Origin: Sulfurovum sp.
Lineage (GTDB): Bacteria; Campylobacterota; Campylobacteria; Campylobacterales; Sulfurovaceae
Assembly (NCBI GenBank): GCA_027082955.1
Contig: JALWTA010000038.1
Coordinates: 60,338 to 124,337, forward strand
Direction: 5' to 3'
DNA: 64,000 nt
Part shown: piece by piece, positions 7,392 to 29,532 of the stretch
How positions within the stretch are numbered: the stretch's first letter is position 1
How the letters are laid out: each line of letters begins with the position of its first letter
Notes under the pieces: generated by a model
What the model saw: the letters and a program-made list of their open reading frames with translations, nothing else
What the model was told of the DNA's origin: nothing
Databases searched by the model: none
Position numbers and translations under genes: made by a program

Positions 7392-8477
7392 TCAGGCAAT
7401 ACTACGTTCATCCGTAAAAAAGAGATACACTGCATAAATCCACAATAGCACTACCGGCAGTAGTGCTGTAAGCTCGGGGATAACCACACCGTTAGAACCT
7501 ACCTGATCCAAACCAAAAAGGATCCCCCATATTACAAAAGTAATTCCCAAGGAAAATGCTATCACAAGCCCCATATTCATCATACGTGCATGAAATGGGA
7601 GTTTAAAGAACAAAATGAGTAACATTGCCAGAGAGAAAAGCGGCACTACACTCTTTTCATACAGTGCTGAGCGTATCTTGTCGGAATTGAGATGCTGTTT
7701 GTGCAGTAGTTGCCAAGTATGATAGGCATCCATGATATTGAGTGACTTCCCCTCATAGAGAGACTCAATAATTTTCGGCTTATACCCTCTTAGGGTATCG
7801 ATATGCTCTTTTTGTTCACTTTTGTAGCGCACCAGATTCCCATGACTATCATATATATGGGTTTTTAAAAGTGCATTTTGGGCATCCCACTTCTCACCGT
7901 CAAACAAAGCACTAGGGGCATGGATCGTATAGAGTACCTTATGTCCCTTCACTTTGAAGATTGTCACATTCTCGATGCGTTTGTGGACAGGATCGAGCTT
8001 TTGCATATAGACAAAAGTATCATTGTATTTAAAAAAAATATCATTGACATTATAGGTACCGATCTCATTTTTAAGCAGTGCCTCCCCTTTGTCTCCTGCA
8101 TAGGCAAAAGCGGTTGTGTTCAAACCCAAAAACAGAACATATACTACAAACGCGACCAGAAAAAGTGGAGCAACAAGACGTTTTTTGCTATATCCGAAAG
8201 CATGAAAGCTGCCCATGGTATTCTGTTTTACCAAGGAGAGTTTCGTCATGATCAATGCAAAAATAATAGAGAGCGGGTAGAGCATCTCGAGTGCCTGCTG
8301 CCACATATAAAAGATATAGAGTATCTTGTAGTTCCATGCGACCTGAAGCTCTTGTGCATACTGAAAATAGTTAATGGATGCAAAAGCGAAAGAGAGACCC
8401 ATCAGAATCCATAGCAGATTCTTAAGATAGCGCAGACTCAAATAACGAAAATAGAGGGGTGGTGTAAGCATGTTCAT
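7392..8477 (-). CDS. LptF/LptG (YjgP/YjgQ) family permease
   Basis: Membrane topology and family-like sequence, RYLSLRYLKNLLWI... Confidence 0.75.
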   Translation of the reverse strand: MNMLTPPLYFRYLSLRYLKNLLWILMGLSFAFASINYFQYAQELQVAWNYKILYIFYMWQQALEMLYPLSIIFALIMTKLSLVKQNTMGSFHAFGYSKKRLVAPLFLVAFVVYVLFLGLNTTAFAYAGDKGEALLKNEIGTYNVNDIFFKYNDTFVYMQKLDPVHKRIENVTIFKVKGHKVLYTIHAPSALFDGEKWDAQNALLKTHIYDSHGNLVRYKSEQKEHIDTLRGYKPKIIESLYEGKSLNIMDAYHTWQLLHKQHLNSDKIRSALYEKSVVPLFSLAMLLILFFKLPFHARMMNMGLVIAFSLGITFVIWGILFGLDQVGSNGVVIPELTALLPVVLLWIYAVYLFFTDERSIA

Positions 8478-9046
8478 TGCACCAGTCCCCCAATTGATTT
8501 CAGACTGTAACGGGATTTCACTTCATTGAGATCCCAGTGCAACAGTGCATCTGCCGCTTCTGCCACATGGGAAACAAGTGCGTCAATCTGTTGCATTTCT
8601 TCAGGAACAAAAGCCTGTAAAACATAGTCTGCTACCTGTGATTTATGCTCTGGTTTACCAACACCTATACGAATACGAAGGTACTCTTTCCCAATCATAC
8701 TGTCTATAGACTTCAGTCCGTTATGACCCCCATGACCTCCCCCTCTTTTAAAACGTACTGCCCCGAACGGAAGGTCTATATCATCATGTATGACGATAAT
8801 GTTCTCCATTTCTACCTTAAAAAACTGTTTGACAGGCAATACACTTTTCCCAGATAGATTCATATAGGTAGTAGGCTTTAAAAAAAGAGTGGAAACGGTA
8901 CGGTACAGTTCACCGTGAAATGCAGATTTTGAGATATCTCTGGCTTCATGTTTCTCGATAAGTGCGTCGATAACTTTGAAGCCAATATTATGCCGTGTCT
9001 CTTCGTATTGTGATCCCGGATTTCCCAGACCTACGAAGAGTGTCAC
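8474..9046 (-). CDS. pth: Peptidyl-tRNA hydrolase
   Basis: LFVGLGNPGSQYEETRHNIGF, GGHGGHNGLKSI. Confidence 0.97.
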   Translation of the reverse strand: MTLFVGLGNPGSQYEETRHNIGFKVIDALIEKHEARDISKSAFHGELYRTVSTLFLKPTTYMNLSGKSVLPVKQFFKVEMENIIVIHDDIDLPFGAVRFKRGGGHGGHNGLKSIDSMIGKEYLRIRIGVGKPEHKSQVADYVLQAFVPEEMQQIDALVSHVAEAADALLHWDLNEVKSRYSLKSIGGLVQ

Positions 9047-9059
9047 AACGGTACTTTCA

Positions 9060-9596
9060 TTATTTGGACTTGATTACACCGCAGATTGCAACATCAGGTC
9101 TGTCCATCAGGCGACAACCTTCCGGTACCTCAACATCTCTGACAAGAATAGAGTCATCTCTGTTGAGCGGTTCAACATCCAGATCAAATTTTGCAGGCAT
9201 ATTTTCGATCGCCCCTCTTACTTTGATTCTTCTTTTTGACATAACGAGTACACCTTTGTTTTTCAGACCAACCGGAGTACCGTGAGTCACAACAGGGACA
9301 AGATAGTCAGTTACCTGACCGGGAACAGCGATTCTAAGATCAACATGTACTACCTCACCATGTACAGGGTGCAGTTGATACTCTTGAATGACAACATTCA
9401 GTTCTTTGTCACCGACTTTCACAGGGAATGCAAGGTTCTCTTTGGCTCTTACTGCTCTTACAAACTCACCGCGTTTGAACGCCGCTTGAATGTTCTCTAC
9501 GCCTTTGGCATAAAGGTTTGCAGTTAGATAACCATCTCTTCTAAGCTTCTTTGCAGTCGTCTTTCCGATACTCTCTCTAACGATACCTTCTAACAT
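9060..9596 (-). CDS. rplY: 50S ribosomal protein L25/Ctc
   Basis: MLEGIVRESIGKTTAKKLRRDGYL...; next to pth as usual. Confidence 0.92.
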   Translation of the reverse strand: MLEGIVRESIGKTTAKKLRRDGYLTANLYAKGVENIQAAFKRGEFVRAVRAKENLAFPVKVGDKELNVVIQEYQLHPVHGEVVHVDLRIAVPGQVTDYLVPVVTHGTPVGLKNKGVLVMSKRRIKVRGAIENMPAKFDLDVEPLNRDDSILVRDVEVPEGCRLMDRPDVAICGVIKSK

Positions 9597-18966: not shown

Positions 18967-19494
18967 CTACAGACACTCTCTGCTTGGACGATGTACCCAC
19001 TTATACTTTTTATCTTCACGGATCGGTGCGGCGTATACCGTACCGGTCTGCCGCCATGCATCTACCACAACACCATCATGCACCCTGCCCCCTTTACGCG
19101 TCACTGCCAAGGCATTGTGTTCCATCCAGTATGACCCGATGTGCGCTCCGATCAGGTGAAAACCAAAATGTGGGTAGTACGTTTCTCTACGTTTTAAATA
19201 AGTGTAGAGTCCGTCACTGTAGTGGTAGCAAAGTCCTTTTTTCTTAAGCCCGATATTGACCAGAAAATTGTGAAACTTCGGCGGGGTCGTACGCCCAAAC
19301 TCCCGGTTCAACGCTGCCGCACGCTGCACAATATCGTGGGCGAGCAGTCTGGTCTCCTGTAGCGTAGCATTACTCTCAAGCCCATTCAATACATGTACGA
19401 GTTTTGCCTCTACTGCTTTGGGAGCCTTCATAGGTACCTGTGTGCAGCCGGAAAAGCACCACAGGAACAGACTAAAGTACAAGATGCGCATAAT
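18967..19494 (-). CDS. Putative lipoprotein with transglutaminase-like C/H/D spacing
   Basis: Lipobox LWCFSGC; KGLCYHYSD, MEHNALAV, VVVDAWR. Confidence 0.6.
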   Translation of the reverse strand: MMRILYFSLFLWCFSGCTQVPMKAPKAVEAKLVHVLNGLESNATLQETRLLAHDIVQRAAALNREFGRTTPPKFHNFLVNIGLKKKGLCYHYSDGLYTYLKRRETYYPHFGFHLIGAHIGSYWMEHNALAVTRKGGRVHDGVVVDAWRQTGTVYAAPIREDKKYKWVHRPSRECL

Positions 19495-20155
19495 GCTCCA
19501 CAAGCACATTCTCAAGCATATACCAGACAAACAGAGCCATTACCATACCAAACGGAACAAGCGCTTTTGGGGAACGGGCAACCAAAAATCCGCCGACAAA
19601 CCCGGTCAGCAACCCTCCGACATGTGCACTCATATCAATGGAGGCAACAGAGAGCCCGAGAAAGAGGTTTAGCCCGATAATAACAGCAAAGTCTTTCAGT
19701 ATCTCTCTGCCCCTTTCAGTGGCAATACGATCCCTGTGGGCAAGAAAAAAGCCGCCCAGCGCACCAAACACACCGAAGATGGCACCGGAAGCACCGATAC
19801 CCACACTTTCAGGGTGTATATAGAGTGAGGCTACCCCGCCTGCAAGTCCGGAAAAGAGATAAATGGTAATATAAGCAGTTCTGGAGAAATAGAGCTCCAT
19901 CCCTCGGCCAATGAGATAAAGCGAGAACATATTCATAAGGATGTGTGTCATGCCCCCATGCAGAAACATGGCACTCAAAAGCCGCCACCACTCACCTTTG
20001 AGCACTACAAGCGGTCCATACAGTGCACCCATATCAACCAGCGTGTTTAGATTGATATCGGCAATATCACCACTCAGAAATATGCTCAACACATATACCA
20101 ATGCATTGAGCGCTATAATCCCATACGTCAGAGGATAACGGCTCATCTGACTCAA
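19472..20155 (-). CDS. Rhomboid-family intramembrane serine protease
   Basis: GASGAIFGVFGA and multiple TM segments. Confidence 0.88.
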   Translation of the reverse strand: MSQMSRYPLTYGIIALNALVYVLSIFLSGDIADINLNTLVDMGALYGPLVVLKGEWWRLLSAMFLHGGMTHILMNMFSLYLIGRGMELYFSRTAYITIYLFSGLAGGVASLYIHPESVGIGASGAIFGVFGALGGFFLAHRDRIATERGREILKDFAVIIGLNLFLGLSVASIDMSAHVGGLLTGFVGGFLVARSPKALVPFGMVMALFVWYMLENVLVEHYAHLVL

Positions 20156-20775: not shown

Positions 20776-21362
20776 ACGCGGCCTTTGATGTAAAGATAGT
20801 TTCTGTGCGCTTTTTGTACTATATCATAATCTAACTGATGTTGCACAGCATCGATCTCATCAAACACCCTGCTGCCCTTGTAGAAAAGGTAGCGGGTATT
20901 TAGATCACTGAGTGTTCGGGTCAAATTAAGCAACAATGCTGTATTGGTTACTGCACGGCTGCTAATAAGGTCGAAAGGGGCATGTTCTATCTTCTCAACC
21001 CTTTTTGCCTCTACCCTCACATTGGAAATGCCAATGTCAATACAGGCATACTTCAAAAACGATACCCGCTTTTTTAACGGTTCTGCAAGCACGACTTCCG
21101 TATCGGGCATGGCAATTGCCAGTACCAGTCCGGGAAATCCTGCACCTGTTCCAACATCAAGCAGCGTTTTGGGTGTCGTTATAAATGTAAGCGGGTAGAG
21201 TGAATCAATAATATTGTCATAAATTGCATCAATCGTTTTTGCTCCGGTGAGATTATGCACTCCATTCCATTCATGCAGCAGTGAGGCAAAGTGTTCCAAT
21301 TTCTCCATAAGATCTTGGGAGACTAAAATGTTTTCTTGATCCAAATATCTTTTTAATATCAT
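20772..21362 (-). CDS. rsmG: 16S rRNA (guanine527-N7)-methyltransferase
   Basis: [26 protein letters not shown]. Confidence 0.95.
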
Positions 21363-21366
21363 CTAT

Positions 21367-21654
21367 TTACTGTTTACCATTCACTATTTGCACCAATCCA
21401 CTCTCTGCTAGCCTATCAACAAAAAGCAGTAAATCCTGTTTCAAAAGTGCTTCATCGACATCATATTCTTCAAGCAATACATTAAACACGCTCTCTAATT
21501 TTCCATCTTCTGCTTCAATAGCTTTCCAAATGGATGTACCCACTTCATCAAGTCCAAAGTAATTTTCCGAATTCATATCGAGTAGTACCATTTCACCGTC
21601 TATCTCCTGTGTGAAGACACTCTCTGAGCACACAACCCTATCTTTCACATCCAT
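21367..21654 (-). CDS. PqqD-family peptide chaperone (RRE/B1-like)
   Basis: EIDGEMVLLDMNSENYFGLDEVGTSIWKAIE. Confidence 0.88.
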   Translation of the reverse strand: MDVKDRVVCSESVFTQEIDGEMVLLDMNSENYFGLDEVGTSIWKAIEAEDGKLESVFNVLLEEYDVDEALLKQDLLLFVDRLAESGLVQIVNGKQ

Positions 21655-21724
21655 AAAAAACCTCTTTTTCTTTTATTATAACATGCTTCATATTGCAACT
21701 TCCACAACATATGAATACCCCTAC

Positions 21725-22801
21725 TCAATACAGTTGTTTGGCATACGTCTGATAAAACAGATCCGGTTGATGATGAAATGCGAGAGAGACAAAAGAAAGT
21801 CGGCGTTTTAACACCATGCCTATCTCTGATTCAATACGTTCCTGATACGACTGTGCGATACTGTTTGGGCTACAATCACCTTCAAGTACAGCCGAAATGC
21901 TTTCAGCAGCAATCTTGCCACTATGCAACGCATAACGTATTCCTTCACCGCTTATAGGGTCGACCAAAGCAGCAGCATCACCTGTTAAAAGCACTCTTTT
22001 CGTTGCTATTGGTCTCCTCCCTCGATACACAGGAATAGGGTGCCCTTTAACCGATATTGCTTCAATTGCTTCTTTGGGTAATGAACGTAATAAAAAATCA
22101 TCTAAGTAATGCCTAATATTGATTGGGGACCCCCATGTACCTATTCCGCAACTTAATATGGCATTATCTTTAGGGAATATCCATCCATAACCCTTTGGAA
22201 TACAAAAGTAGTTCATCACCATTGTATTGTGAAACTGCCTGTATGCATCTGCTTTCATAATTACTTCAGCTTCCAATGATTGTGCAAATCGTCTATCACC
22301 CATTAGTCCAACTGATTCGGCAGTCCTTCCTAAAGCACCGTCTGCACCAATTACATAGCGGCTTTGAATCCTGCTTCCGTCTTTCAATACAACATTAATG
22401 CCGTTGTTTTCCTCTTCAATAATACGTACCTCTGCCCCAGTTTTCAGCATTAAACCATCAAAACGATTTTGAGCCTGACGGAGCAAAAATGCATCAAATA
22501 AACGACGATGTACCAGCAAAGGTGCCTGATTGCCTTCTGTGTGATACATGATGCTTTGTTTATAATTGTGATACAGTTGCAAACGTGTGGTACGATTAGC
22601 CACTATCTCTGACAAATCAAGGGAAAGCAAAGATTCAACAGCTCCAGGCATAGCTCCACCACATGGTTTGTCTCTGGGAATAGCAGTTTTATCAATCACC
22701 AACACCGAATACCTACCTTGTCGTGCAAACGTCAATGCTGCACTAGCACCCGCAGGTCCTGCACCAATAATAACAATATCAACACACATAAGGTTGCTCA
22801 T
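21725..22801 (-). CDS. FAD-dependent geranylgeranyl-reductase-type oxidoreductase
   Basis: VIIGAGPAGASAALTFA, DKPCGGAMPG, LLTGDAAALVDPISGEGI. Confidence 0.87.
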   Translation of the reverse strand: MSNLMCVDIVIIGAGPAGASAALTFARQGRYSVLVIDKTAIPRDKPCGGAMPGAVESLLSLDLSEIVANRTTRLQLYHNYKQSIMYHTEGNQAPLLVHRRLFDAFLLRQAQNRFDGLMLKTGAEVRIIEEENNGINVVLKDGSRIQSRYVIGADGALGRTAESVGLMGDRRFAQSLEAEVIMKADAYRQFHNTMVMNYFCIPKGYGWIFPKDNAILSCGIGTWGSPINIRHYLDDFLLRSLPKEAIEAISVKGHPIPVYRGRRPIATKRVLLTGDAAALVDPISGEGIRYALHSGKIAAESISAVLEGDCSPNSIAQSYQERIESEIGMVLKRRLSFVSLAFHHQPDLFYQTYAKQLY

Positions 22802-24065
22802 TCCCAAGGTAATGTCTATGATAGATGTTGATCTTATCGATTTGCTCCTCTTTAATTTCTATGGCAACATCATAATATGCTTGTTTTTGCATCTTTTTAC
22901 AAACATCGTCATAATAAGGAATTATCTTTTTAAAATACTCTAGTTCATCCGCAGCCACCATAAGTTCTATTTTATAAGAGACGAACTGTTCTTCTCTATC
23001 CAACCTCAAAACCAAGTAATGTATATTTAGATCTATCTCTTCAATTGAAATATATGGTTTCAAGTATCGCGACAAAAAGTGCTTCGTCGTCTGAAAATAG
23101 AGTTTATATCCCCCCAAACCATCATCGAACACATCAATACCAATACCTATAAACTGGAGATCTTTTACATGTGGATACCTATAGTTTATTTGAAAATCCA
23201 TCAGCAGTTTGTCACCATATGTCTTTGGAGTAAACATATAAAAAGACTCTCTATAACGGGATCCTTTTTGTGCAAGGCTGTATGCTACTTGTGAGGTCTT
23301 TTCAATATCTGCTATACCTTCAAGCATATCTACATACGATCGTGCAATTGTATGTTCCCGCATAAATGAAAACTCGGTCGCATAGTCTTTAGGATTCAAA
23401 GCATTACAACCATAGATAAACCGGTTTTCAAAGGAGTGTTCTGAATCAAAATCTATATTGGTAACATAATATACCGTCCTGTAGCTTGTCGTTCTATCCT
23501 GACTTTGACAATAGTGTACATATACCGCATGCATCTGATTTAAATAATTCCACTGTGTCTGAAACGGATACAATTCATTTTGTGTAAGCTTTGTTCTCTC
23601 TTCTTCTTTTTCTATGACAGGCTTTATTGCACCTATTGAAATAAGCTCAGGAGCATGACAGATTTGCTTATCTATACACTTCCTGCACTCAGAATTTGTT
23701 TTCTCTTTTGTAGACCGAAACGGCAAGGTACCCTGCTGATATCGGAAGCGCATATACCAGTAGCTACCCAATAGTGCCCGTATAATGCATGGGGGAGTAT
23801 CATGAAAAAGAACATTTTTTTGTGCAGATAGGAGCATTTTAATGTTTTTGTCAAAAAAAATAAGCTTGCCGTAAGACTCTATATCATGTTTCACGCCTAT
23901 GCATAATCCTTTAAAAAATGGCGTACCAAGACATATCTTTACAATCTGTTTTATGGCATATTCATCTCCAGCACCGATCAAAATATCAAGCATGAACTGC
24001 TCTTTTTGACACAATCTCTTTTTAAGGCTTTCAATGCCCTCAAAACGATAACAAGGTTCAGTCAT
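22779..24065 (-). CDS. Unknown RiPP-cluster protein with CX2CX5C motif
   Basis: 428-aa ORF overlapping both neighbours; ECRKCIDKQICHAPE. Confidence 0.75.
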   Translation of the reverse strand: MTEPCYRFEGIESLKKRLCQKEQFMLDILIGAGDEYAIKQIVKICLGTPFFKGLCIGVKHDIESYGKLIFFDKNIKMLLSAQKNVLFHDTPPCIIRALLGSYWYMRFRYQQGTLPFRSTKEKTNSECRKCIDKQICHAPELISIGAIKPVIEKEEERTKLTQNELYPFQTQWNYLNQMHAVYVHYCQSQDRTTSYRTVYYVTNIDFDSEHSFENRFIYGCNALNPKDYATEFSFMREHTIARSYVDMLEGIADIEKTSQVAYSLAQKGSRYRESFYMFTPKTYGDKLLMDFQINYRYPHVKDLQFIGIGIDVFDDGLGGYKLYFQTTKHFLSRYLKPYISIEEIDLNIHYLVLRLDREEQFVSYKIELMVAADELEYFKKIIPYYDDVCKKMQKQAYYDVAIEIKEEQIDKINIYHRHYLGNEQPYVC

Positions 24066-24966
24066 TTGTATGCCCTGATGTAATCTGATCTACCACTGCA
24101 TAATAAACCTCGTTAAGACGTTCGATCTCTTTTGGTACATTTATCTGATATAATTGTACACTTCCGCTAAACTTCAGTAGATACTGCATTTCGGTCGTTG
24201 ATATTGAGATCGGCTCATATAGATATGCCTGCTGCAAAACTTCAAATTTGTGCAGCCCTCCAATTAACTGAATAGAACATTTTTCATCTGACTCAACAAA
24301 CGATAACAAAAAAACACCTCCTACTGGAAGAGGTGATGAGCAGTATCTTTCTGTTAATGTTCCAAGTGTTTCAAAATCACGGGTCGTTCTGCGATAAGGA
24401 TAGGATGGGTAAGCAAAGTAACCATCTGGGGTCAATACTATTCTGATTTTATCATCAGATAACAGTCTGTGTCCCTGCTGTACAAAAAAATCTGCCAGTG
24501 TTGATTTCCCGCCATAGGATGGGGCAATGAATAAAATGGCTTTTCCACCTACCTCCACGGCTGAGGCATGCAGTAGTATATCGCCTTGCGCAAGCATCAT
24601 ATAAACTGGCATGACCGTATGTGAAAGCCAAAAAAGAAGCTTCGTGCTATTTCCTTCTCCACCGAGTGTTTCAACACACATTTCTCTCTGATGATTTGAC
24701 CAAGTAAACACAAACCTCTTTTCGATAACAAGCTGCCATACTCTCGATGGAGATGAACGAGGGTCAGAAAAAGGAAGATTGCTGCGAAGCTGTGTCGATT
24801 GTCCATGGAGATTCACAGAAGGTATTGCGTATGGCATCGCTTGAACTAATGTACACTCTTTATCAAGATGCAGCAAAAGCTTTTGGTCCGATATGCTCTC
24901 CGGTGTACGCTCTAAAGGCAATGTGGTGGAGGTTTTAACTTCGATGCCGTAAATAACAAATTTCAT
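24058..24966 (-). CDS. HPr kinase-like P-loop protein, putative RiPP kinase
   Basis: AILFIAPSYGGKSTLADFFVQQGHRLLSDDKI. Confidence 0.8.
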   Translation of the reverse strand: MKFVIYGIEVKTSTTLPLERTPESISDQKLLLHLDKECTLVQAMPYAIPSVNLHGQSTQLRSNLPFSDPRSSPSRVWQLVIEKRFVFTWSNHQREMCVETLGGEGNSTKLLFWLSHTVMPVYMMLAQGDILLHASAVEVGGKAILFIAPSYGGKSTLADFFVQQGHRLLSDDKIRIVLTPDGYFAYPSYPYRRTTRDFETLGTLTERYCSSPLPVGGVFLLSFVESDEKCSIQLIGGLHKFEVLQQAYLYEPISISTTEMQYLLKFSGSVQLYQINVPKEIERLNEVYYAVVDQITSGHTND

Positions 24967-26597
24967 CTCTTTTCATCTCTCCTTCCATTGGCATTGACAA
25001 AATTATACCGATACCAGTACTCTAGATTGATCAACTGCCAAAAATAGACAACAGAACGCATTTCCCCGCTTTTGTATCTCTGCACATATTGGTCAAGACT
25101 TTTTTGTTCCATTATGCCAAGCTTTGCCAAATATGCATTCTCAAATAACGCTCGAATATCCAACGCATCAATCTGCTGTTTCAATACATCTGTGAACTGT
25201 GCTTTATCATCACGTTGTCTGATCTCTTCCGGCAATATTCCCTTCATAGCAACACGCAAAAGACGTTTACTAAATCCTGCTGAATACTTCATATGCATTG
25301 GAAGCGACAATGCAAATTCTATAAGCTGTCTATCAAAAAACGGATGTCTGAAACGAATACCGTAGTACTTCTCTGCAACCGTATAGTAACTGCTTTCCAG
25401 CAATACAGATAGACTCGAATGCAACACACCTGCAAGTTCCGCTTTAAACGCATACGATTTCCCATCGTAACATTCATAAAGCTCTTCTACCTTTGGTACT
25501 TGACAAGAATCGGTCTTTTTGGTAAAACTTCCTCTCCGTATGGTTCTGACAGCATTGCGCAATCTATTGAGGTTCTTCTCTCCTATCATTGGATACAATA
25601 CATAATGTATCAATTTTTTATGCGGCTGAGGCACATATCTTAACTCTTGATATAGTCGTTTAAACTGCCTCGTCACAAAAAGATCATACAAAATAAAAGG
25701 ATTACCTGCAAGAATATTGTCTCCCCCTTGCCCAGTAAGTACAGTGTTTAGACCATTGCGACACACCTGTTCCACTATAGAAAAACCCATCGTGTAGGTG
25801 ATGAAAATCGGCCAATACGGGTGCATATCATAATTCTTTTTAAGACTGTACTCTGTTTTATAATCCATCTTGTCTGTCTGTGCACAATAAAGATCAATGT
25901 CATATTTATTCTTCACTGCTTGAGCATACTGTATCTCATCACACTCTTTCAAGCTTTGGAAAGACATGGAAAATGCTTTAATGCGCTTCTTTGGATAACG
26001 TTGCTTGACCCAGGATACAACAGAGGAGGAGTCCAACCCTCCACTTAATTCAAATCCGGTTCTATCTATATTATCTATACGGCTGAAGATTGCATCATCA
26101 AACAGTTTTTGAAACGTCTCTACAGCCTCCTCTTCATCCAAAGCTTCATTTTGCTCTATCTCTTCTGGCTTCCAGTAACGCTCTATTTTATAGGTTCCAT
26201 TTGCCAAAATTTTCATGTAGTGTCCAGGAGGCACTCGAAAAACCCCGCGGTACATTGTCCTTTCATATGCAATAGCCTGATAGTGAACAATCTGATGCAT
26301 CGTTTGCATATCAGGTTCGGGAGCAAGAGCACTTTTTGTAAACAACCTGCCCATATCCGTTTCTAAATATACTTTCCCTTCTGCTATTGTATAATAGAGT
26401 GGTGTGATACCGATGATATCTCGTGCTGCAAAAACATACTTCTTCTCATGATCAATAATAACAAAAGACTCTTCACAGGGAAGATGGTCAAGACACGATT
26501 TTCCAAATTGTCTATATGCCTCACTGATACGAGTGGTGTCATGACAGAATAACACCTCAAACTGTCGATACTCTTTTTCTTGAGGCATACAGGTCAA
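24963..26597 (-). CDS. Asparagine synthetase-like lasso cyclase (C protein)
   Basis: FELSGGLDSSSVVSWV, TGQGGDNILAGNP; no N-terminal Cys nucleophile segment; TTG (26597) or ATG (26588) start. Confidence 0.85.
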   Translation of the reverse strand: MTCMPQEKEYRQFEVLFCHDTTRISEAYRQFGKSCLDHLPCEESFVIIDHEKKYVFAARDIIGITPLYYTIAEGKVYLETDMGRLFTKSALAPEPDMQTMHQIVHYQAIAYERTMYRGVFRVPPGHYMKILANGTYKIERYWKPEEIEQNEALDEEEAVETFQKLFDDAIFSRIDNIDRTGFELSGGLDSSSVVSWVKQRYPKKRIKAFSMSFQSLKECDEIQYAQAVKNKYDIDLYCAQTDKMDYKTEYSLKKNYDMHPYWPIFITYTMGFSIVEQVCRNGLNTVLTGQGGDNILAGNPFILYDLFVTRQFKRLYQELRYVPQPHKKLIHYVLYPMIGEKNLNRLRNAVRTIRRGSFTKKTDSCQVPKVEELYECYDGKSYAFKAELAGVLHSSLSVLLESSYYTVAEKYYGIRFRHPFFDRQLIEFALSLPMHMKYSAGFSKRLLRVAMKGILPEEIRQRDDKAQFTDVLKQQIDALDIRALFENAYLAKLGIMEQKSLDQYVQRYKSGEMRSVVYFWQLINLEYWYRYNFVNANGRRDEKR

Positions 26598-26755
26598 GAC
26601 CGTGTCGGTGCTCCGTAATATTGCCCGCCGTCAGGTTGTCCTGTTCCGTTGATATTGCCTTTTGTGTACTCAGCGAATGTACCATACTTTTGCAGTACCG
26701 GTTTATGATACACTTTCTTTTTAGCTATGAACTCTTTCTGTTTCTCTTTCGACAT
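26594..26755 (-). CDS. Lasso-type RiPP precursor (53 aa, not in ORF track)
   Basis: MSKEKQKEFIAKKKVYHKPVLQKYGTFAEYTKGNINGTGQPDGGQYYGAPTRS; exact YxxPxLxxxGxxxxxT; its stop overlaps the cyclase start. Confidence 0.85.
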   Translation of the reverse strand: MSKEKQKEFIAKKKVYHKPVLQKYGTFAEYTKGNINGTGQPDGGQYYGAPTRS

Positions 26756-26970
26756 ACCAGTATTTCTCCCTTACTTCACTCTAAAAACGAGGCAAGCTCA
26801 TTTCACTTATTTACGTAAACTGTATTATTGTACCATAAAATCTATACCGTCTTTTCCACAAATCTCGAACATTCCCTGTCAAAAGATCTTTTCCTTAGCG
26901 ATCTTCCCAGACTGGATACTATGCACGTACCTTTAAAGTAAAAACACTTAAAATCTTTACTATATCCATC

Positions 26971-27546
26971 TTAAAGCAAATGCCCCATCTGCTCTTTTTT
27001 AGTCTTCAGGTATGCTTCATTATGGGGGTTGGGGGCAATGCGGATCGGCAGACGTTCTACGATCTCAATATCTGAGAGACTCTCTATCTTTGCCGGGTTG
27101 TTGGTCAGCAGCTTAAGACGTTCAACGCCCATGTGATGCAAGATGAACTCCACGATCTCATAGGTACGCTCATCGGCACGGAAACCGAGCTGATGATTTG
27201 CTGCCACAGTATCGAGTCCTTGATCCTGCAAGGCATAGGCATTTACTTTGTTGAGCAATCCAATATTACGCCCCTCTTGACGGTGGTAAATCACCATGCC
27301 GCCCTCTTTGGCGATGAGATCGAGTGCGAAATCGAGCTGCTCACCGCAATCGCACTTGACCGAGCCGATAGCATCGCCGGTCAGACACTCCGAGTGTACC
27401 CGGACGATAGGGGTATCAAGTGTATGGAGATTGTCTGTAAAGATAGCAAGATGCTCTTTACCCTGATCATCCTTGAATGCCTGTATCTGAAATGTACCGT
27501 GTTTTGTCGGCAGAGTTGCGATTTGTGAGATCTCTATGTTTTTCAT
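26971..27546 (-). CDS. ribA: GTP cyclohydrolase II
   Basis: VRVHSECLTGDAIGSVKCDCGEQLDFAL, YHRQEGRNIGLLNK. Confidence 0.95.
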   Translation of the reverse strand: MKNIEISQIATLPTKHGTFQIQAFKDDQGKEHLAIFTDNLHTLDTPIVRVHSECLTGDAIGSVKCDCGEQLDFALDLIAKEGGMVIYHRQEGRNIGLLNKVNAYALQDQGLDTVAANHQLGFRADERTYEIVEFILHHMGVERLKLLTNNPAKIESLSDIEIVERLPIRIAPNPHNEAYLKTKKEQMGHLL

Positions 27547-28955: not shown

Positions 28956-29252
28956 TTACAACCGTTCGGAAGCTTTGGCATACACCGCCATATCTTCCCG
29001 TTTGCCCACAACAATTACCTCAACAATAATTTGTGACTCAATGATCCGATAAACAATGCGAATTTTTTTCTTATCAACATATAATTTACGAAGACCGCTT
29101 AAATTGTATCCGGATTTATTACCAAGAAAGTCTCCAAGTTCAGGAGACTCTTGAAGCTTTTTGAATTGCTTGTACACAAGCATTCTTTGTGATTTTGAGA
29201 GTTTTGAAAGATCTTTCTCTACCTCTTTTTTTACTTTAAGCTTATAACTCAT
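28956..29252 (-). CDS. RelE/ParE-type toxin
   Basis: VEKDLSKLSKSQR...LRKLYVDKKKIRIVYRII; overlaps antitoxin. Confidence 0.82.
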   Translation of the reverse strand: MSYKLKVKKEVEKDLSKLSKSQRMLVYKQFKKLQESPELGDFLGNKSGYNLSGLRKLYVDKKKIRIVYRIIESQIIVEVIVVGKREDMAVYAKASERL

Positions 29253-29532
29253 CGTAGGAGATACCTTCTTTTTCCAACAATGTTTCAAAATCGATCGTTT
29301 CAGAATCTTTTCTCTCCTCTACGATTTTTGCAATCTCTGCATGCTCCATAAGTTCATACGCTTCTTTCAGACGCTCATACTCTTCGATATCGATTATGAC
29401 TGCTTCAAGCCTGTTGTTTTTGGATATGGCTATTTTCTCTTTTGTCTTTTTTATAATGCTATTCAATGTACCCGAAACATTACGTGCCAAATCTGTTGCG
29501 GAAATAATTTCATCTCTTGTATAGGCTACCAT
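29242..29532 (-). CDS. Phd/YefM-type antitoxin
   Basis: ISATDLARNVSGTLNSI...AVIIDIEEYERLKEA. Confidence 0.8.
   Translation of the reverse strand: MVAYTRDEIISATDLARNVSGTLNSIIKKTKEKIAISKNNRLEAVIIDIEEYERLKEAYELMEHAEIAKIVEERKDSETIDFETLLEKEGISYDEL

Follow-up and report, generated by a model that had tools for sequence, protein, structure and literature searches.

A 64,000-nucleotide stretch of a metagenome-assembled genome of Sulfurovum sp., a bacterium of sulfur-oxidising type (MAG; contig JALWTA010000038.1, hereafter the window), contains six genes on its minus strand at positions 21367-26755, all with frames at the positions first described. They are arranged in the order A-C-K-X-GGR-B1 and encode a precursor peptide (A), an asparagine-synthetase-like cyclase (C), an HprK-like kinase (K), a 428-aa protein (X), a flavin enzyme of the geranylgeranyl reductase family (GGR) and a PqqD-like leader-binding protein (B1). 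The A/C and C/K gene pairs each overlap by 4 nt, K/X by 8 nt and X/GGR by 29 nt; GGR and B1 are 70 nt apart, and the end of B1 is 4 nt from rsmG. A first-pass annotation had read this region as an operon for a lasso-type ribosomally synthesized and post-translationally modified peptide (RiPP) with a new precursor; that reading is supported, and the genes are conserved across two phyla. A-C-K-X-GGR-B1 is a real, conserved and rare lasso-type operon; judged by its sequence it is to be called lasso-type and not a proven lasso peptide system, because the sole acidic residue of the core, D10, lies outside ring positions 7-9.

The co-occurrence of these genes was followed by genome mining with X. 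Among 175 genomes of the family, four besides the window's own carry it; no further copies were found in 397 genomes sampled evenly across the phylum, none in 390 genomes of the order of the Halieaceae match beyond that genome itself, and none in plasmid records. A scan of GTDB r220, with one genome per species and one peptide pattern, gives at least five loci, which is a lower bound. With so few loci across these scans, the system is therefore rare. The full gene order recurs in another phylum, in a Halieaceae MAG of the Gammaproteobacteria (L018; JADGEN010000035.1), where A-C-K-X-GGR-B1 follows a divergently transcribed B2 peptidase gene and the enzymes share 32-45% identity with those of the window. 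Partial versions are present at four other Sulfurovaceae loci. In L013, from the window's own genus, A-C-K-X stands at the end of a contig; L020/L011 carries C-GGR-A-X-K and, about 1 kb off, B2; L021/L012 (Nitratifractor) combines C-A-X-K, without GGR, with B1 and B2 on a different contig (L027); and L019/L010 (Sulfurovum UBA7648) has K-X-GGR and a divergent B1, adjoining a canonical lasso set of precursor (...NKTE|SGISLGDEYLVLSA), C, B1, B2 and an ABC transporter.

The precursor and its predicted processing enzymes

Precursor A (53 aa; 26594..26755, minus strand) has a leader at residues 1-32 (YHKPVLQKYGTFAEYTK) and a predicted core at residues 33-53 (GNINGTGQPDGGQYYGAPTRS); written as leader and core it reads MSKEKQKEFIAKKKVYHKPVLQKYGTFAEYTK | GNINGTGQPDGGQYYGAPTRS. 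As first proposed, the leader fits the pattern YxxPxLxxxGxxxxxT, and it is the sole match among the 997 open reading frames (ORFs) of the window, against an expectation of 0.03 per window from shuffled sequences. It also matches the NCBIfam model NF033521 (lasso_leader_L3) at 21.9 bits, above the cut-off of 19. Conservation of the frame, on which the first-pass annotation had let its reading depend, holds. Homologues are matched by phmmer in L013 (4e-18) and L018 (8e-7), and the differences between A and its L013 homologue fall mostly at third codon positions (18, 13 and 31 at first, second and third positions). An alignment of five precursors (window, L013, L018, L020 and L021) has 12 invariant columns, including Y16, P19, G25, T31 (Thr at -2), G33 (Gly1 of the core), G37, D42, Y46 and S53.

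The cores fall into short and long types. The short cores of the window, L013 and L018 (GNINGTGQPDGGQYYGAPTRS, GSFDGQGQADGQQYYGSDLYS and GTGEGGPDFDAESYYNGQQLS) are each 21 residues long with D10, Y14, Y15 and a C-terminal Ser21, and that of L018 has D8 besides D10. The long precursors of L020 and L021 (L020:7710-7925 and L021:7773-7985) have cores beginning GSSGTGSDAGTYQ... and GSSGSGTDGGTYK..., with D8 and Y12; these precursors end in Arg and have a post-core extension, missing in the short ones, that ends RG(T/S)FDxxAFDxSxFDR. A Tyr is located four residues past the aligned acid in all five precursors and none has a Trp in its core. Characterised lasso rings contain 7, 8 or 9 residues (PMC13352647), a range that includes the D8 of L020 and L021, and the D10 of the window core, its sole acid under the Thr(-2) rule, falls outside it. 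D10 is also found in lasso precursors of the window's genus that lack X (L054 and L055, with E9 and D10 in L059). These sequences predict either that such cyclases form 10-residue rings or that cleavage of the leader is shifted by one residue towards the core. The strongest alternative to a threaded 10-residue ring is a macrolactam that is unthreaded, or a 9-residue ring formed after the later cut with Thr at -3; the recurrence of D10 in L013, L054, L055 and, beside E9, L059 speaks for it, whereas Thr(-2) is a strong leader rule, under which the D8 of L020 and L021 would give a normal 8-residue ring behind the same leader. We consider this alternative possible, if on the unlikely side.

The cyclase C (544 aa; 24963..26597, minus strand) matches PF00733 (6.7e-41) and has an SGGLDSS PP-loop; its best NCBIfam model is lass_lactam_cya (221.9 bits, vs 200.7 for AsnB), with both scores under the cut-off. 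Some 100 residues are missing from the start of its glutaminase domain, and with them the catalytic Cys2; the orthologues in L013, L018, L020 and L021 (30-53% identity) likewise lack the glutaminase N-terminus and its Cys. The kinase K (302 aa; 24058..24966, minus strand) matches PF07475 (3.4e-5) and contains LLHAS, GGKST and SDD segments, which provide a His / GKS / DD motif that is invariant in six relatives. A His-Lys-Asp-Asp motif is described for the kinases of paeninodin-type lasso peptides (PMC9266682), and both this motif in K and a C-terminal Ser in the core are present here. B1 (95 aa; 21367..21654, minus strand) is a predicted leader-binding protein (RiPP recognition element) matching PF05402 (2.3e-15), for which the best NCBIfam model is NF033536, lasso_PqqD_Bac (58.0 bits, under the cut-off of 80).

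Protein X and the geranylgeranyl reductase-like enzyme

The 428-aa protein X (22779..24065, minus strand), left unexplained by the first-pass annotation, is on its modelled structure the key to the operon, since a predicted ABBA prenyltransferase domain gives GGR its reason. AlphaFold and Foldseek/VIA divide it into two domains. Residues 163-428 (22782..23579, minus strand) form a predicted 10-stranded ABBA prenyltransferase barrel according to DSSP of the model, Foldseek and VIA, and residues 1-136 (23658..24065, minus strand) an N-terminal Cys domain in which P91-x-C93 and C127-x2-C130-x5-C136 are invariant in the alignment. The AlphaFold model, made with seven sequences, has a pLDDT of 72.5, and its ten strands and intervening helices follow the ABBA pattern over residues 195-417. 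Foldseek ranks 1-29 with this model are all prenyltransferase chains, led by KgpF and LimF (best E 3.3e-5) and including AmbP1, EpzP, NphB/Orf2, DciF and others, with an abrupt fall at rank 30 to unrelated proteins (E 0.08). VIA comparison with CymD, PatF, KgpF, PriB, DciF, PagF and LimF gives Z scores of 14.4-16.4 over 228-258 residues (rmsd 3.5-4.2), the highest being with CymD (16.4) and PatF (16.2). The invariant residues R196, R215, R272, K321, Y323, R354, K411 and Y415 are on predicted barrel strands, placed in the model as a diphosphate cage would need, and form a putative one. The C-terminal domain of X is thus predicted to be an ABBA prenyltransferase by its fold. X has no meaningful match in Pfam, NCBIfam or the PDB by phmmer or profile searches, and none of the curated prenyltransferase family models in Pfam and NCBIfam matches it at E<=10, so that X is at best a new and remote ABBA branch.

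In L019 the N-terminal domain is encoded by its own ORF (8016-8489), in a different frame from the prenyltransferase ORF (8513-9301), and the L013 X ORF stops at the same domain boundary, just short of the contig end. X is therefore probably a two-domain fusion, the alternative being a frameshift in the draft assemblies of L019 and L013. A second AlphaFold model of the N-terminal domain alone has a pLDDT of 64, and its best VIA match (Z 7.7) lies among mostly partial TIM barrels and resembles background; one candidate, which we offer as a lead, is a radical-SAM-like half barrel that has degenerated and whose Cys motif is twitch/SPASM-like. A second, solitary X homologue (L022:1380-2639) is present in the L020 genome on a 6.5-kb contig with no cyclase or precursor, where it adjoins large HGSKDKHGSK-repeat proteins.

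GGR (360 aa; 21725..22807, minus strand) is a FAD-dependent member of the geranylgeranyl reductase family, matching TIGR02032 at 224.3 bits (cut-off 158.8). Its best solved relatives in the PDB are a digeranylgeranylglycerophospholipid reductase (3oz2; 1.7e-22) and SaGGR (1.5e-15), with halogenases behind. Geranylgeranyl reductases are recognised by an active-site Cys, a YxWxFP-x7-8-GxG segment and a GGG/GEG motif (PMC6309074), and all of these are present: a KPCGG Cys aligned with KPCG of SaGGR, YGWIFP-x8-GIG, and GEG, as in chlorophyll-type reductases. A search of six genomes found one copy each, beside X, in G000, G003, G062 and the L018 genome (which has one further weak, partial match), and none in G037 or the incomplete G088. 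Being single-copy and found only beside X in these genomes, GGR is therefore tied to the peptide locus and not to general lipid metabolism, and a housekeeping neighbour is rejected. The flavin enzyme had been singled out at first as an unusual partner; the association is supported and is conserved across two phyla.

A second alternative accepts a lasso-type RiPP and has X and GGR act otherwise, X making a small prenylated compound or GGR serving as a flavin hydroxylase or desaturase of Tyr. ABBA barrels and GGR-family flavoproteins do include small-molecule enzymes, GGR also scores with halogenase and hydroxylase families in Pfam, and the L022 copy of X stands without other cluster genes. Against this, the genes overlap and keep their order with the precursor, and GGR has the full prenyl-reductase motif set and prenyl reductases as its nearest structures, which also makes a halogenase or hydroxylase assignment less likely. 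We regard this alternative as unlikely.

The B2 peptidase and the rsmG-ribA interval

The absence of a recognisable B2 peptidase gene, remarked on at first, is borne out for the window's genome (a 95.6% complete MAG), in which neither PF13471 nor two homologous B2 queries found one. Of the five other genomes that carry X, the identical search gave one B2 each in G003, G062, G037 and the L018 genome and none in G088 (78% complete). The gene is adjacent to the module in L018, nearby in L020/L011 and elsewhere in the genome in G037 and G003, and the L018 protein exceeds the NCBIfam lasso B2 cut-off (80.8 vs 33 bits). Because relatives with the same module carry B2, the system as such is not B2-free, and the description of the operon as non-canonical on that ground does not stand: the absence belongs to one assembly. 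From these sequences we read it as a probable assembly gap or lineage loss and not as B2-free chemistry. X was rejected as a stand-in B2, as the fold predicted for its C-terminal half is that of a prenyltransferase-like barrel and not of a transglutaminase, and X-bearing relatives also have B2. A lipoprotein-like protein with spaced Cys, His and Asp residues (window 18967-19530, minus strand), transglutaminase/NlpC-like by eye, was considered as a stand-in peptidase and has no Pfam match.

The six genes occupy the interval between rsmG and ribA (window 21362-26971), which in this genus is a hot spot for lasso and PqqD gene sets (L054-L063), with variable content and empty in some species. At eight of 20 rsmG loci ribA is within ~350 nt of rsmG, leaving no space for a cluster. 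Ten other rsmG-ribA intervals were compared; in nine a PqqD gene is directly upstream of rsmG, several add lasso genes (K, B2, ABC, C and other precursors), and L060 is without a lasso gene. Since a PqqD gene precedes rsmG in most of the loci compared in the genus, B1 is probably resident there and A-C-K-X-GGR acquired. B1 may therefore be transcribed separately.

Sequences with decayed frames are present at one of these loci: L063:1-700 (G081:C83), upstream of B1-rsmG, is stop-ridden and resembles the N-terminal domain of X (PSCVMYLILGLYHFSQF) and the C-terminus of K (VPWNMARLEEVYEAIYTH), and to judge by these similarities is a decayed relative of the module. The weakest alternative, which we consider improbable, is that the window locus is likewise a remnant that has lost B2 and makes nothing mature, its frames still open; the missing B2, the gain and loss of lasso genes in the interval and the G081 fragments fit this, but the six frames are long and uninterrupted, the changes in A relative to L013 are biased to third positions, and ~4% of the genome is unseen.

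Other lasso-like precursors in the hot spot are located at L054:13682-13813 and L055:2976-3158 (first suitable core acid at position 10), L059:6885-7055 (E9 and D10) and L061:2490-2615 (E8). A recurring cassette (L054:4577-8671, L056:3088-7068, L057:10033-13909 and L058:1066-4863) at this spot encodes a 64-70 aa twin-arginine-like (RRxFLKK) protein, a large protein that looks secreted and in L054 resembles a lectin, a lipoprotein-like protein and, next to PqqD, an HprK-like kinase; it is possibly another peptide-maturation system. Elsewhere in the window, a pair of genes at 28956-29532 (minus strand) is RelB/RelE toxin-antitoxin-like by eye.

A proposed pathway and its relation to known systems

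We think it fairly probable that the operon makes a lasso-type RiPP lipidated with an isoprenoid, which X prenylates, GGR saturates along its prenyl chain and K phosphorylates. By family, B1 would bind the 32-residue leader of A, and K would phosphorylate Ser21 at the end of the core, as suggested by the paeninodin-kinase motif and by the terminal Ser of all three short cores, Ser being the target known for such kinases. Cleavage by a B2 peptidase behind Thr(-2)-Lys(-1) would release the core from its leader, and C would link the Gly1 amine to Asp10, the sole core acid. The prenyl group would come from a diphosphate donor and be placed by X on a side chain of the core, with Tyr14 or Tyr15 as the most probable site; some prenylation of lasso peptides follows threading (PMC13352647). 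GGR would then reduce double bonds of the attached chain, or else distal units of the donor before transfer. With free geranylgeranyl diphosphate such enzymes reduce at most three of the four units and the unit next to the diphosphate stays (PMC6309074), and reduction before transfer is therefore chemically possible too. The expected product would be a small peptide, knotted and phosphorylated, that carries a saturated isoprenoid tail. In the window's genome the B2 gene may lie in the unassembled ~4%, another peptidase may substitute, or the locus may no longer be productive.

Several observations weigh against this reading: the missing B2; D10 as sole core acid, which puts the ring size outside the characterised range; the lack of a sequence link from X to known prenyltransferases and the moderate confidence of its model; no exporter identified for the window locus; and the presence in L021 of X without GGR, from which it follows that reduction is not obligatory. 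A more specific version is doubtful when taken as a whole: in it, the product would be the first RiPP with a reduced isoprenoid, a lasso peptide that is prenylated on Tyr, phosphorylated and closed by a 10-residue macrolactam ring, and X would represent a new family of two-domain prenyltransferases, with a Cys domain as a possible binding site for a metal or an Fe-S cluster. If the proposal is true, prenyl reduction would join RiPP chemistry, and a compact enzyme set would place a saturated isoprenoid tail, as a membrane anchor, on a very stable peptide scaffold. It would also reveal an ABBA prenyltransferase branch outside Pfam and NCBIfam, predict a 10-residue lasso ring, and show that free-living Campylobacterota have a new kind of lasso chemistry that has moved between phyla.

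Wygwalassin is reportedly a prenylated lasso peptide modified at Trp. Wygwalassin and collinodin (cited in PMC13290415, ref. 24, and PMC13352647, ref. 349) are both reported to derive from lasso clusters in which a prenyltransferase modifies the peptide, as proposed here; the present system differs from them in that its cores have no Trp, X is outside the curated families scanned and has an extra Cys domain, and GGR is added. Prenylated lasso peptides with Trp prenylation are already known (PMC13352647). Among the papers searched, none mentions a geranylgeranyl reductase together with a lasso peptide, and we found no account of peptide prenylation paired with saturation of the chain. The paeninodin-type clusters (PadeA/K/B1/B2/C) share the HprK-like kinase with His-Lys-Asp-Asp, the Ser at the end of the core and a separate B1, but are without a prenyltransferase or GGR, and B2 is not found in the window's genome. 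The ABBA enzymes of cyanobactin and lanthipeptide pathways (PatF, PagF, LimF, KgpF and MppC) resemble X in its predicted barrel and act on RiPPs, with Tyr among their known targets, whereas X is only 10-14% identical to them in structural alignments, shares no common HMM, and has an N-terminal Cys domain, a lasso context and a reductase partner. The window GGR is like SaGGR, TaGGR, ChlP and MenJ in its active-site Cys, YxWxFP-x8-GxG, GEG and TIGR02032 score above the cut-off, but it sits in a peptide operon, while the known enzymes act on lipids, chlorophyll, quinones or free prenyl diphosphates. Set beside these systems, the prenyltransferase branch, cores that have a conserved Tyr and no Trp, the predicted prenyl reductase paired with X, and a core with D10 appear to be new.

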